Positions 25,786 to 31,901 of a stretch of DNA of 31,901 bases are shown here, in pieces. Each line of letters begins with the position of its first letter. The first letter of the stretch is position 1. The notes below the pieces were generated by a model. That model saw nothing but the letters and a program-made list of their open reading frames with translations. It was not told the DNA's origin and searched no databases. The stretch is from a virus, in IMG/VR virus record IMGVR_UViG_3300034038_000038, positions 1 through 31,901 of that record; one strand, written 5' to 3'. A program made the translations under genes and the position numbers.

Positions 25786-26877
25786 TTATATCGTTAAATT
25801 TACGCCTGCCGTTAGTTGTGAGATAGTGTCATCGTTGGCACCTTTAAAGATCAACATTTCGAGCACCTCATCAACCTTAAACCCAAGCTCGAGCATCTGC
25901 GAGCCCTTGATCGAGGCGCGAGGCGATACGACGATTTTAATCCCTTTTTTCAAAGCGTTTTTTCTGATGCCTTGAACGATTTTAACAAAAGCCTTGTTTC
26001 CGGCAAGAGCGAGCTCAAGTTTCTCGTCATAGTCGAAATTAATCACGGCGAACCTGTCGAGCGTTGCCGCATCGAGTTGGTTGCGACCTACAAACATTCT
26101 ATCTTTGCCGCGCCCGTATGTATTGGCGGCGGCGATAAAGATAAAATCTTTGTGGCGATTTATTTTTTTATCGGGAAATTCCATAACGCCGTTTGAAAGC
26201 ATAGCGTTAATTATGGTGAGAATCCCGGCGTTTCCGGCGTCGACCTCGTCCATAAGGAACACGCCGCCGTGCTCGTATGCCTCACGGAGAGGCGTTGAGA
26301 TATAGTTTCCTACGGCGTCCATATATCCCAATAAATCGGTTTTCGTCGTCATCAATCCGACCGATAAAAACCTAAAATCAACACCGAGAGCTTCGGCGAT
26401 CGATGCGGCGATATGTGATTTGCCCGAACCGGCGGCGCCGACGAGCATCATATCGATGCGAGCTTGTGCGAGTTTTAAGATTGTCGGGAAAAGCTCGTGC
26501 TGCAATCCGATATTTTTTATCTCGTTTTTTTCAACGTTTTTTATTTCAATGGTGAGAGGCTTTTCAATTTTGTTAACTTTTTCCTCAAGCTTGTTAACTT
26601 TTTCCTCAAGCTTGTGATCGACCACCGGTTTGCTTGCGATCGTTATAAAGGGCGCGATCGCGTCGGCAATCATTTTGCCCAAATCGCCCGTTGTTGCTGT
26701 TTCGGTTTTTGTTTCGGTTTTTGTTTCGATTTTTGTTTCAGCTGAAGGAAGCTCGCCAGTTTCGATAAACTTGATCAAATCGGCTTTTTTGGTTTGCAAG
26801 ACCACTGCACCGGTCAAGCCGTTTTCCCGTGCCAAGCTTCTCAATTCTGCTACAGTTAATTTTTCGAGATTTTTCAT
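25786..26877 (-). CDS. MoxR/CobS-type AAA+ ATPase with N-terminal Rho-N/SAP-like domain
   Basis: A 363-residue protein. Residues 5-40 (L-T-V-A-E-L-R-S-L-A-R-E-N-G-L, then K-K-A-D-L-I-K-F-I) resemble the Rho N-terminal or SAP-like nucleic-acid binding helices. Residues 46-63 are a K/E/T repeat, and 88-106 a short coiled coil with an exact 21-bp duplication. The AAA+ domain has Walker A G-A-A-G-S-G-K-S (147-154), Walker B V-F-L-M-D-E (206-211), sensor N252 in A-A-A-N-T and an arginine finger in L-D-R-F (about R275). MoxR-type ATPases usually remodel a target together with a VWA-domain protein; the gene just upstream (27034-27876) may be that partner. It has its own promoter and terminator. Confidence 0.9.
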   Translation of the reverse strand: MKNLEKLTVAELRSLARENGLTGAVVLQTKKADLIKFIETGELPSAETKIETKTETKTETATTGDLGKMIADAIAPFITIASKPVVDHKLEEKVNKLEEKVNKIEKPLTIEIKNVEKNEIKNIGLQHELFPTILKLAQARIDMMLVGAAGSGKSHIAASIAEALGVDFRFLSVGLMTTKTDLLGYMDAVGNYISTPLREAYEHGGVFLMDEVDAGNAGILTIINAMLSNGVMEFPDKKINRHKDFIFIAAANTYGRGKDRMFVGRNQLDAATLDRFAVINFDYDEKLELALAGNKAFVKIVQGIRKNALKKGIKIVVSPRASIKGSQMLELGFKVDEVLEMLIFKGANDDTISQLTAGVNLTI

Positions 26878-27033: not shown

Positions 27034-27876
27034 TTAGGCTCTTATTATTTCCATAATACAGCTTAACGCTTTATTTGCTTTTTCGTCGTTAAAATCCTCC
27101 GGGCGCATATCAAATTCATATCTGCAATAGTCGGTATTTTTTAAGTGGATTATCCCGTCAAAATCACCAAAAACCTCAAAAATTTCCTCGCGCCTTAAAT
27201 CACTCGCAACCGTGATACTCGGAGCGTATGGATTTTCGCAAGCCGCCTCAAACTCGCCAAACATTATCCGGCGAAAAAAAGATTTTTCAGCAAAAAAGTA
27301 ATATTCGGAGGCGTCATTTGCGATGTTCCCGGTATTTACAAAAGAGGCAAAACGCTTGCCTCGATAGTCAGCCCCAAAATAAACAAGGCAAAAAACCTCG
27401 TCAAATTTCAGCTCGAGCGCCTCGATCAAGCTCATTATACAGCTCGCTTTATTCGAGAGTAGATTGTCGCTTGCCCAGTGAGCATAAGCCCCGTTGATAA
27501 GGATAACGGCGCGGCTTTTAACCGTCGGCGCCATATCTACGAAACACTCGGGCTCACCGGCGAGGAAAGAGCCCACATCGAGAGAGCCGCCCGATACCGT
27601 GCGATTTATCGCGATCTCAAGATTTGCGTCGCGATCAATTTTGCTTAAGTCGATGTTAACTTTTTTATTTTTTGGTGAGTATGTTTTTATCTTTTCCGCC
27701 GCCTCCTCGTAACTTTCCGCGCCGGTGAATCTTGTTCGCGAGTAGCCATTTTGTTTGCTAACGGGCACGCGGCTTCCCGCGTATTTTTTATGCGCCCTCT
27801 CTGTTTCCGCGATAACATCGGCGACCGAATCAAACTCCCTAAACTTTAGCCCTGTTTTTAGTTTTCTTTGTTCCAT
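27034..27876 (-). CDS. VWA-like protein, probable partner of the MoxR-type ATPase
   Basis: A 280-residue protein. The start is ATG 27876 (M-E-Q-R-K) with AAAGGGG 7 nt upstream; an in-frame ATG at 27924 lies inside the promoter -10 and is rejected. Residues about 120-150 (R-A-V-I-L-I-N-G-A-Y-A-H-W-A-S-D, then a helix K-A-S-C-I-M-S-L-I-E-A-L-E) and F-D-E-V-F-C-L-V-Y-F-G-A follow the order of the first strand, helix and second strand of a von Willebrand A domain, but the D-x-S-x-S metal motif is replaced by N-G-A-Y-A. The assignment therefore rests on fold pattern and on the adjacent MoxR-type ATPase. Role unknown; pairs of this kind insert metals or mature protein complexes. Confidence 0.6.
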   Translation of the reverse strand: MEQRKLKTGLKFREFDSVADVIAETERAHKKYAGSRVPVSKQNGYSRTRFTGAESYEEAAEKIKTYSPKNKKVNIDLSKIDRDANLEIAINRTVSGGSLDVGSFLAGEPECFVDMAPTVKSRAVILINGAYAHWASDNLLSNKASCIMSLIEALELKFDEVFCLVYFGADYRGKRFASFVNTGNIANDASEYYFFAEKSFFRRIMFGEFEAACENPYAPSITVASDLRREEIFEVFGDFDGIIHLKNTDYCRYEFDMRPEDFNDEKANKALSCIMEIIRA

Positions 27877-27915
27877 CTTTTTTCCCCTTTGTTTGTTTGT
27901 TTTACTTACAAGGGT

Positions 27916-27944
27916 AATATACATTTACAGTGTCTTATTGTCAA
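27916..27944 (-). promoter_or_regulatory. Operator-bearing promoter of the VWA-like gene
   Basis: TTGACA (27944-27939), 17-bp spacer, TATATT (27921-27916). The spacer carries ACACTGTAAATGT (27933-27921), whose last base pair overlaps the -10. AAAAGTTAACTTTT lies upstream (27948-27961) and the leader ACCCTTGTAAGTAA downstream, as at the neighbouring promoters. Confidence 0.83.
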
Positions 27945-28804: not shown

Positions 28805-30139
28805 CTAAAAACCGACGTTTTGCACCGGAGCATCTTTGCGATAATCGATATCGTAAAACTCCGACAAAGCGAGATTTATTGCAAGATCGATCTCATCGCT
28901 CGCGCCGTCCCTTTGCTCGATAACGAGCCGAACCTTGTCTTGCTTATCCTGTTTTTTAAATATACGATCTAAATTGTTTAATATGATCGCGCAATCAACG
29001 CTCTCACCGATGCCGCCCGACTCTTTAAGATCGCCTATGTGAGCTATACGCCCCTCTGCACCGTTGTTTAGCTGCGAGAGATACACTAACCCTACCTTAT
29101 ACTTTTTAGCCGCATCAGCGAGCCCTACGGCGATCTTTTGAATCGACGTTGCCCGGTTTTCGTTGCCGTTTGTTTTTATGTTAACTCTTTGCAAATAATC
29201 GAGAAAAACAACCTTAACCCCTTTTATTGCAAATTTCCTTATAACTGCCGTTATTTGATTTATATCGAGCCCGGCGCGATCGTCAATAAATAGCCTGTTT
29301 TTTTGCGAGTATAGATATTTATAAGCTTTCTCGATCTTTTCTTTTTCTGCCGCCGTTAAGTTTTTTCCGGTTTTTAACTTGTCCGCCGGTATGCGCGATA
29401 TGTGCGACAAAAACCAGCGCAAAAGATAAGGCTTGCCCATTTCAAGCGATATCCAACCAACAGGAACCCCCGCCTTGATCATATTTAGCGTAGTGTTTAA
29501 GGCGAATTTTGTTTTGCCTGACTTTTTTAAGCCGCCGATAACGTAACTTTTGCCGGGCTCGATGCCACCAGTTACGCGATCGAGCGATTTTAAGCCCCAA
29601 GATATACCGCTTAAATCCCTCTCGTTGCTTATAATTTCCTCAAAAACATCGTCGATATAAGGATCGATCGAGATATCAGAATCGCCCGTATCGTCCGATA
29701 TGTCGATCAAAAAGCTTTGGAGATCGTTTGCGATACTTGAAAAATCGAGGTTTTCTTTTTTTGTTATATCCCCCTTCACTTTTACAATTTTCTCGAATAT
29801 TTTCCGCACCTTCGAGAAGTTTTTCAATTGAAAAATATAAAAATCAATATTATCGACCGCCGGGCAGATCGAAAAAATTTCAAGTATCTCGTGAGCCTCG
29901 TAATATAACGAGCCAAATTTTTTGGTTTTTGCATAAGCAACGATCGCCGTCATCTCCCACTTTTGGAGCTCGTTTATTGCTTTTATCAAAGTTTCATAAA
30001 GCGCCCGGTTTTTCTCGCTTGCGAAATCATCGGGCTTTAACTGATCGATGCAAAGATAAACCTTATCCTCGCTGTGCATCATTACCGACAAAATCAAGCG
30101 CTCTATATCGATTTGTTTTTGATGAGTGATCTCGTTCAT
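28805..30139 (-). CDS. dnaB: Replicative DNA helicase, DnaB-type
   Basis: A 444-residue SF4 helicase. The N-terminal domain (about 1-115) has the I-E-R-L-I-L-S-V-M-M-H opening and D-F-x-S-x-x-N-R-A-L-Y-E-T motif of DnaB. The RecA-like domain has Walker A G-L-K-K-S-G-K-T (203-210), S-L-E-M-G (231-235), Walker B V-V-F-L-D-Y-L-Q (310-317), the L-S-Q-L-N (354-358) motif and the D-L-K-E-S-G-G-I motif (370-377). The glycine-rich loop reads G-G-L-K-K-S-G instead of the common G-R-P-S/G-M-G. Its ATG shares one base with the stop of the initiator gene (TAATG). It unwinds DNA at the phage fork after loading at the origin in that gene. Confidence 0.94.
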   Translation of the reverse strand: MNEITHQKQIDIERLILSVMMHSEDKVYLCIDQLKPDDFASEKNRALYETLIKAINELQKWEMTAIVAYAKTKKFGSLYYEAHEILEIFSICPAVDNIDFYIFQLKNFSKVRKIFEKIVKVKGDITKKENLDFSSIANDLQSFLIDISDDTGDSDISIDPYIDDVFEEIISNERDLSGISWGLKSLDRVTGGIEPGKSYVIGGLKKSGKTKFALNTTLNMIKAGVPVGWISLEMGKPYLLRWFLSHISRIPADKLKTGKNLTAAEKEKIEKAYKYLYSQKNRLFIDDRAGLDINQITAVIRKFAIKGVKVVFLDYLQRVNIKTNGNENRATSIQKIAVGLADAAKKYKVGLVYLSQLNNGAEGRIAHIGDLKESGGIGESVDCAIILNNLDRIFKKQDKQDKVRLVIEQRDGASDEIDLAINLALSEFYDIDYRKDAPVQNVGF

Positions 30140-31131
30140 TATTCCCCCAGTGTTTTTTTAGTGTGCAAAATATCGTTAATAAAAAAAGTTAAGTTTCCCG
30201 GCGTTTTTGCCCTCGTTGTCCATTGAAATTTTTCATTGTAGCCAGCAGAAAAATAAAAGTCGATGATCTCAAGTAGATCGATATTCATTTTTTCAAGCTT
30301 GGCGTTTAAATCTTTTAAGTTTTTGTAATACTGTTTTTTTTCGATAAAATCAATTTCTGACTCGTTACACTTAAAAGAAAAATATTCAATAAAGTCGCGA
30401 GCTGTTTTTTTCTTTTTGCGCCTTATTATTTCCGGTAAAGTTTCCGGCTCCGATTTTTCCACTATATTATTATTAGTACTCTTATATATATTAAGTATAG
30501 TGGGAGTTTCTTCGTTAAATCCGCTGTTTTGTTTTTGTAAGTCGTTGTTTTCTTTGAGTTTATAATTATCAATTTTTGATATTTCGGCGTTTTTTTCGCT
30601 TAATCCGCCGTTTTGTTTTTCTAAATCGCTGTTTTTATTGAGTTTACAATTATCAATTTTTAAGATTGAGCCGTTTTCGATTTTATATAAATCGCCGTTT
30701 TCGCCCGATATAAACGCACCCTCGCTTAATCCGCCGTTTTGTTTTTGTAAGTCGTTGTTTTCCTTGTGTTTACAATTATCAATTTTTAAGATTTGAGCGC
30801 CGTTTTCGTTAATTTTTGATAAAATATCGCTCAATGTTGATATTTGTTTTTGTAAGTCGTTGTTTTCCTTATGTTTACAATTATCAATTTTTAAAATCGA
30901 CCGATTAAAGAGCTCTCCGAAAAAAGCCGCTTTTATCGCCGTTTTTTTAGTTTTTTTATTATAATCGATCGCCCCTTTTTGCCTTAATCCCTCAAGCGCC
31001 CGATATATGTTTTGCTTGATGATACCGGTATTTTGCGCGATATCTTTTATCTCGACTTTTTGCGATACCGTGCCATTTACAAGCGCAATATATAGTAATA
31101 CGATCGCCTCGTTTTTCGTTAAGTTATTCAT
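30139..31131 (-). CDS. Phage replication initiator with N-terminal HTH and heptad repeats
   Basis: A 330-residue protein. Residues 5-60 form a winged HTH (N-E-A-I-V-L-L-Y-I-A-L, then I-K-D-I-A, I-K-Q-N-I-Y-R-A-L-E-G-L-R-Q-K-G-A-I). Residues 79-210 hold four copies of a unit beginning I-L-K-I-D-N-C and containing N-D-L-Q-K-Q, at residues 79, 114, 156 and 184. Their spacing (35, 42, 28) is always a multiple of seven, which fits a coiled coil. The C-terminus (about 240-330) is basic and helical, as in DnaD/DnaB-loader-like initiators. Like lambda O, it precedes the helicase gene and contains repeated DNA likely to be the origin. AAAGGGAG lies 7 nt before the ATG. Confidence 0.85.
   Translation of the reverse strand: MNNLTKNEAIVLLYIALVNGTVSQKVEIKDIAQNTGIIKQNIYRALEGLRQKGAIDYNKKTKKTAIKAAFFGELFNRSILKIDNCKHKENNDLQKQISTLSDILSKINENGAQILKIDNCKHKENNDLQKQNGGLSEGAFISGENGDLYKIENGSILKIDNCKLNKNSDLEKQNGGLSEKNAEISKIDNYKLKENNDLQKQNSGFNEETPTILNIYKSTNNNIVEKSEPETLPEIIRRKKKKTARDFIEYFSFKCNESEIDFIEKKQYYKNLKDLNAKLEKMNIDLLEIIDFYFSAGYNEKFQWTTRAKTPGNLTFFINDILHTKKTLGE
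30461..30501. other. AT-rich putative DNA unwinding element
   Basis: Forty-one bases with only seven G or C, inside the initiator gene and 28 bp from the nearest origin repeat. The ends ACTATA and TATAGT form a 6-bp inverted repeat. An AT-rich stretch on one side of an array of repeats is the usual layout of an iteron origin. Confidence 0.6.
30529..30892. repeat. Four 49-bp repeats, putative replication origin iterons
   Basis: Copies at 30529-30577, 30613-30661, 30739-30787 and 30844-30892; the last two differ at one base. The core TTACAATTATCAATTTTT (plus strand) is kept in three copies, with one change in the fourth. Start-to-start distances are 84, 126 and 105 bp, all multiples of 21 bp (two helical turns), which places all copies on one face of DNA. 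They lie within the initiator gene, so the same sequence also encodes heptad repeats. Confidence 0.8.
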
Positions 31132-31588: not shown

Positions 31589-31616
31589 ATTATAACACCT
31601 ATAATGTTTTTTTCAA
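31589..31616 (-). promoter_or_regulatory. Operator-bearing promoter of the replication block
   Basis: TTGAAA (31616-31611), 16-bp spacer, TATAAT (31594-31589) with TGT upstream of the -10. The spacer contains ACATTATAGGTGT (31607-31595), matching the 13-bp dyad. It should drive the membrane ORF, small genes, initiator and helicase. Confidence 0.78.
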
Positions 31617-31629
31617 ACAGAAAAATCGA

Positions 31630-31881
31630 TTATTTGATTTTATCTGTATTGATAAAGTAAGAGATTAAATTCTCCGGCTTTTTGTTATCTGCCTTTATAT
31701 CCCGGTATTTTCCGCATAATAAGCGCACCTCGCTATTATTTAGGCTAAATCCGGTTGATATTAGCCGGGAGTAAATAGCTCCGAGAATAAAATATTTAAA
31801 ATCGTTTTCGCTCATCAGATCGTTATTTTTTACAACCTCCGCGCTTGCGCCTGCCTTGATCTTTGTTTTTTCGTTTTTCAT
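31630..31881 (-). CDS. Hypothetical protein (83 aa) spanning the circle junction
   Basis: An 83-residue soluble protein without a recognised domain; residues about 28-45 form a hydrophobic helix (F-K-Y-F-I-L-G-A-I-Y-S-R-L) and the rest is charged. The start is the ATG at 31881, inside the terminal repeat; the same start at position 74 on the left end overlaps the stop of the 65-aa gene (ATGA), so it is the last gene of the recombination block on the circular map. A new promoter lies 14 bp after its stop. Confidence 0.7.
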   Translation of the reverse strand: MKNEKTKIKAGASAEVVKNNDLMSENDFKYFILGAIYSRLISTGFSLNNSEVRLLCGKYRDIKADNKKPENLISYFINTDKIK

Positions 31882-31901
31882 TTTGTAGCCCCTTTTTTTG
31901 G
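31808..31901. repeat. Terminal direct repeat, right copy (circle closure)
   Basis: Identical to bases 1-94. It contains the first 24 codons of the 83-aa gene and the end of the preceding gene's stop region, so a circular reading restores two intact, overlapping genes. Confidence 0.95.

Follow-up and report, generated by a model that had tools for sequence, protein, structure and literature searches.

The window (the whole stretch of DNA analysed here, 31,901 nt) is a virus record whose two ends share an exact 94-bp direct repeat (1-94 and 31808-31901), and it therefore represents one complete unit of the phage genome, 31,807 bp long. Nearly all evident genes of the phage, as judged from the list of open frames, are carried on the minus strand. 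Among these are a putative replication initiator gene and the gene of a DnaB-type replicative helicase, with the features given in Table 1. On the circular map the initiator gene is preceded by a RecT gene and by a gene that we take to encode a YqaJ-like exonuclease, homologues of which are present in the control loci described below; in loci L152, L153 and L158, homologues of the exonuclease, RecT and helicase genes were found in identical order. No separate helicase-loader gene was recognised in the phage genome. A strong promoter-like site precedes the initiator and helicase genes on their strand, and sites of this kind were no more frequent in the region than in shuffled sequence.

Two further genes were noted in passing. 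The gene at 27034-27924, downstream of the helicase, encodes a DUF7192 protein (Pfam 1.3e-12). The gene of an AAA ATPase (MoxR-like) contains a perfect 21-bp tandem repeat at 26570-26615, which encodes KLEEKVN heptads, and a 12-bp tandem repeat at 26698-26739.

Table 1. Features of the initiator-helicase region, in window positions.
Feature	Position	Strand	Basis or remark
Promoter-like site, 11/12, extended -10; would transcribe through the repeats	31589..31616	-	Consensus match only
Putative replication initiator gene, 330 aa	30139..31131	-	Open frame; 3' end overlaps helicase start
N-terminal winged helix-turn-helix, residues 1-67; candidate repeat-binding domain	30931..31131	-	Pfam TrmB; binding putative
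Linker of 20 heptads, residues 79-218, made up of repeats and spacers	30478..30897	-	Heptad register
49-bp repeat 1, first in gene	30844..30892	-	
49-bp repeat 2	30739..30787	-	
49-bp repeat 3	30613..30661	-	
49-bp repeat 4, nearest AT tract	30529..30577	-	
AT-rich tract, 85% AT; candidate unwinding element	30461..30500	-	AT-richest 40-mers of gene; unwinding putative
C-terminal domain, residues 232-330; candidate helicase-contacting domain	30142..30438	-	Role suggested by position only
DnaB-type replicative helicase	28805..30139	-	Pfam DnaB_C 2e-42 and DnaB N-terminal domain; PHROG 19 2e-71

Repeats and AT-rich tract within the putative initiator gene

The initiator gene contains four direct repeats of 49 bp, located 240-600 bp inside the gene. 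The copies are ungapped and sharp-edged, with 41 of 49 columns invariant and pairwise identities of 42-48/49, and they are parted by spacers that could not be aligned with one another. Start-to-start distances are 84, 126 and 105 bp, all in frame and all multiples of 21. An earlier note on this DNA had reported the repeats, these distances and an AT-rich flank; the repeats and the distances were confirmed and the flank is real, at 85% AT compared with 68% for the initiator gene overall. The 40-mers with the highest AT content in this gene begin 24-34 nt away from repeat 4 on its 3' side, and one further 40-mer, within repeat 4 itself, ties with them. Elsewhere in the genome the best match to the repeat reached at most 28/49. 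The core 20-mer of the repeat occurs four times, versus 0.17 expected from shuffles. Repeat density for the whole genome peaks at 30.4-30.9 kb, and a second iteron-like cluster was not detected anywhere else.

The repeat has no dyad, the best candidate being no better than those of random 66-mers (P = 0.44). An inverted pair inside the repeat (TTGTAA/TTACAA) was rejected, as it is lost in the third and fourth copies. An 8-bp inverted repeat around the AT tract (CCACTATA/TATAGTGG) was likewise rejected as a lambda-like hairpin: 55 such pairs occur in the genome, some of them overlapping, and the DNA fold z-score is -0.9. A second family of short repeats was observed in the same gene. The sequence GCCGTTTT has eight copies genome-wide, all of them on the plus strand. 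The initiator gene contains six of these (30607-30945), and several encode (E/Q)NG.

At positions of the repeat where the amino acid is constant, nine out of ten keep a single codon across all four copies, compared with 1.6-2.7 such positions expected if synonymous sites were saturated. Third codon positions within the repeats vary no more than first and second positions, and pN/pS between copies is 0.34, a value based on very few changes, too few to decide. Seen beside the diverged spacers, this codon identity favours a role of the repeats at the DNA level; recent duplication or gene conversion could give the same codon identity.

The encoded protein and the search for its relatives

Residues 1-67 of the initiator match Pfam TrmB at 2.7e-7, above the cut-off of that family, while a match of the N-terminus to DnaD_N (9e-5) fell below the cut-off of its family. 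Matches to replication initiation proteins in PHROG were weak, and residues 232-330 had no significant family match in Pfam or PHROG. Beyond its winged helix, the protein appears on these comparisons to fit no known initiator family. The repeats and spacers together are translated as a linker in heptad register (e.g. ILKIDNC KHKENND LQKQNGG LSE), in which hydrophobic residues occupy position 'a' of the repeats and 7/8 such positions of the spacers (for the spacers, P = 0.0002 at this phase and 0.015 when every phase is allowed). Polar residues prevail at position 'd', where ILVMF make up 27%, and G, P or N account for 37 of the 156 residues of the linker. Of the in-register coiled coil claimed earlier, the heptad register with its hydrophobic 'a' therefore holds up, but the polar 'd' and the N/G-rich composition make a coiled coil unlikely or weak. 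An AlphaFold2 model produced without an alignment had a pLDDT of 36 and was unusable.

Relatives of the initiator, helicase and RecT were sought in viral contigs, and those of the initiator also in genomes, phages and plasmids; none were found, although the viral and genome scans are seeded by exact 8-residue words and can miss distant relatives. Relatives of the terminase exist, but 23 records behind the loci, when searched, yielded no initiator homologue, and a helicase match was present in only one of 17 records. The repeat pattern was encountered in viral contigs as single chance matches among the matches listed in one scan, and not at all in another.

Comparison with known origins and surveyed helicase loci

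Control loci were assembled from a DnaB alignment, which led to 80 viral loci, and 74 upstream regions were inspected, with that of the window included. At least a dozen of the 74 DnaB-like helicase loci had embedded repeats in the gene just upstream, and two of the repeat-carrying genes belong to Pfam Phage_rep_O (L227, 3.6e-29; L230, 3.4e-16). In seven out of seven genes scored (lambda O and those of L162, L194, L203, L213, L227 and L230), the 40-mer richest in AT of the whole gene was located between -16 and +43 nt relative to the point where the repeats end. In SPP1 gene 38 the AT-richest stretch is likewise at the 3' edge of the repeats, making eight controls in all; as these were picked for detectable repeats, they illustrate what such origins look like and not how frequent they are. 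All six control iterons that were scored, that of lambda among them, are palindromic. In lambda and the four or five unrelated loci scored they are ∼18-23 bp in length, their spacing is mostly 20-45 bp, and many do not keep the frame. Compared with most control arrays, the repeats of the window are 2-3 times longer, 3-5 times more widely spaced and always in frame, and the absence of a dyad sets them apart from the controls other than SPP1. Embedded repeats were also seen in four uncharacterised initiator-like genes (L154:2362-3363, L157:2720-3835, L159:2832-3854 and L194:2995-3930), each with a repeat sequence of its own, helically phased in L194.

Among known systems, SPP1 gene 38 is an embedded origin established by experiment: its product gp38 binds the direct repeats of oriL, inside the gene and next to an AT-rich unwinding element (PMC6316719). 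As in the window, the initiator gene lies upstream of the helicase gene (gp39 being the loader and gp40 the DnaB helicase), and direct repeats in the linker-coding part are followed immediately 3' by an AT-rich tract. The two differ in that SPP1 has short, closely packed repeats and a separate loader gene, and no homology was detectable between the window initiator and gp38 (BLASTP E = 0.17). The likeness to the plan of lambda O pointed out in the earlier note is borne out, since gene O also has four repeats in mid-gene and then an AT tract on the same side (PMC7466680). The lambda iterons, however, are 18-bp inverted repeats spaced 20-24 bp apart and not locked to the frame, whereas the window repeats are 49 bp long, spaced 84-126 bp apart and kept in one frame; moreover, the window initiator had no match to Phage_rep_O (PF04492). 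Plasmid iterons are non-palindromic direct repeats in helix phase that are bound by monomeric Rep proteins (PMC5043065). The window repeats resemble them in being direct, helically phased and without a dyad, but no Rep-family domain was found in the window initiator. Plasmid iterons usually lie outside the rep gene and are ∼20 bp long. Together, SPP1 and the plasmid iterons show that a dyad is not needed for direct repeats to function.

The control arrays also bear on the spacing. They are phased on the DNA helix (R = 0.63 at 10.5 bp, p ∼2e-5, 29 spacings), and the spacings of the 49-bp repeats are in perfect phase at 10.5 bp. Of the 29 control spacings, 15 are multiples of 3 and only six are multiples of 21; helical phasing is thus general, but a 21-bp lock is not. 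For the window, the chance that three in-frame spacings are all multiples of seven codons is (1/7)^3 = 0.003, a figure not corrected for post hoc choice. Yet 21 is a common multiple of 3 (the codon) and 10.5 bp (the helical turn), so that only multiples of 21 are open to an array that keeps both the frame and the helical phase. A 21-bp period also recurs in the AAA ATPase gene of this phage. The 'dual 21-bp rule' proposed earlier was therefore not established. The multiples of 21 most likely arise from the combined demand to keep the reading frame and a single helix face, or from growth of the array by seven-codon units, with no separate rule. Selection for a 21-bp quantum, under which each repeat would serve both as a one-face initiator site and as a heptad in register within a structured linker by which bound initiators are positioned, seems to us improbable.

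Readings of the locus

With a probability of roughly 0.7, we consider the locus to be a replication origin that the phage carries within the gene of its own initiator. The N-terminal winged helix of the initiator would bind the four repeats where the gene codes for the linker; the resulting complex, in phase with the helix, would open the adjoining AT-rich tract, and the DnaB-like helicase from the neighbouring gene would be loaded at the opened tract. Repeat binding, melting, helicase loading and origin activity are what we infer from a gene layout (winged helix, repeat-bearing linker, AT tract on the 3' side, C-terminal domain, DnaB helicase) that supports an embedded origin. Six unrelated phage loci share this layout with lambda O and SPP1 gene 38, which lends support by analogy. 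The locus has several traits of this class, namely at least three repeats in the initiator frame, an AT tract at their edge, a DNA-binding domain and an adjacent helicase. It probably works in the manner of SPP1 oriL and lambda ori, with membership of neither protein family shown. The origin claimed in the earlier note thus gains from the layout, the likeness to controls and the conservation of the repeats as DNA, but not from GC skew, which gave no origin signal (P = 0.15 for the range; extremes located at 9.2 and 24.5 kb) and says little where nearly all evident genes lie on one strand.

The repeats might instead matter for the protein alone, as an extended heptad linker or weak coiled coil that keeps the DNA-binding domain and the C-terminal domain apart and has grown by in-frame duplications of seven codons, the DNA itself having no role. 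Such an account fits spacings that are all in frame and multiples of seven codons, the mainly hydrophobic 'a' of the spacers, the lack of a dyad and the KLEEKVN-coding 21-bp repeat in another gene of the phage. Against it stand the identical codons in repeats that adjoin unalignable spacers and the AT tract, which borders the repeats on their 3' side just as it does in origins, and the polar 'd' and G/N-rich stretches make the coiled coil itself unlikely; we regard it as doubtful, though still to be reckoned with. Neutral slippage, in which the copies form a recent minisatellite with no function in DNA or protein, would agree with the high identity of the copies and with 21-bp increments in size. 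Arrays produced by slippage are as a rule uninterrupted, however, and these copies are sharp-edged and parted by long unalignable spacers, which renders this origin of the array most improbable.

A role in DNA binding need not be a role in replication: the repeats could be an operator array, bound by the initiator or a regulator, that controls expression or copy number while replication starts elsewhere. The winged helix is of a transcription-factor type (TrmB), and the promoter-like site upstream would drive the gene. The repeats, however, lie far inside the gene, beside an AT tract and away from the promoter, and no other iteron-like cluster was detected in the genome, so that we think an operator array very unlikely.

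If the embedded origin is real, the plan known from lambda and SPP1 would extend to an initiator that cannot be assigned to a family, with non-palindromic repeats of greater length and spacing that never leave the reading frame. The survey also provides a simple test for such origins that can be applied to sequence, namely embedded repeats with the AT maximum of the gene at their 3' edge, beside a helicase gene. The locus would then be a clean case of one stretch of DNA serving both as binding site and as coding sequence.
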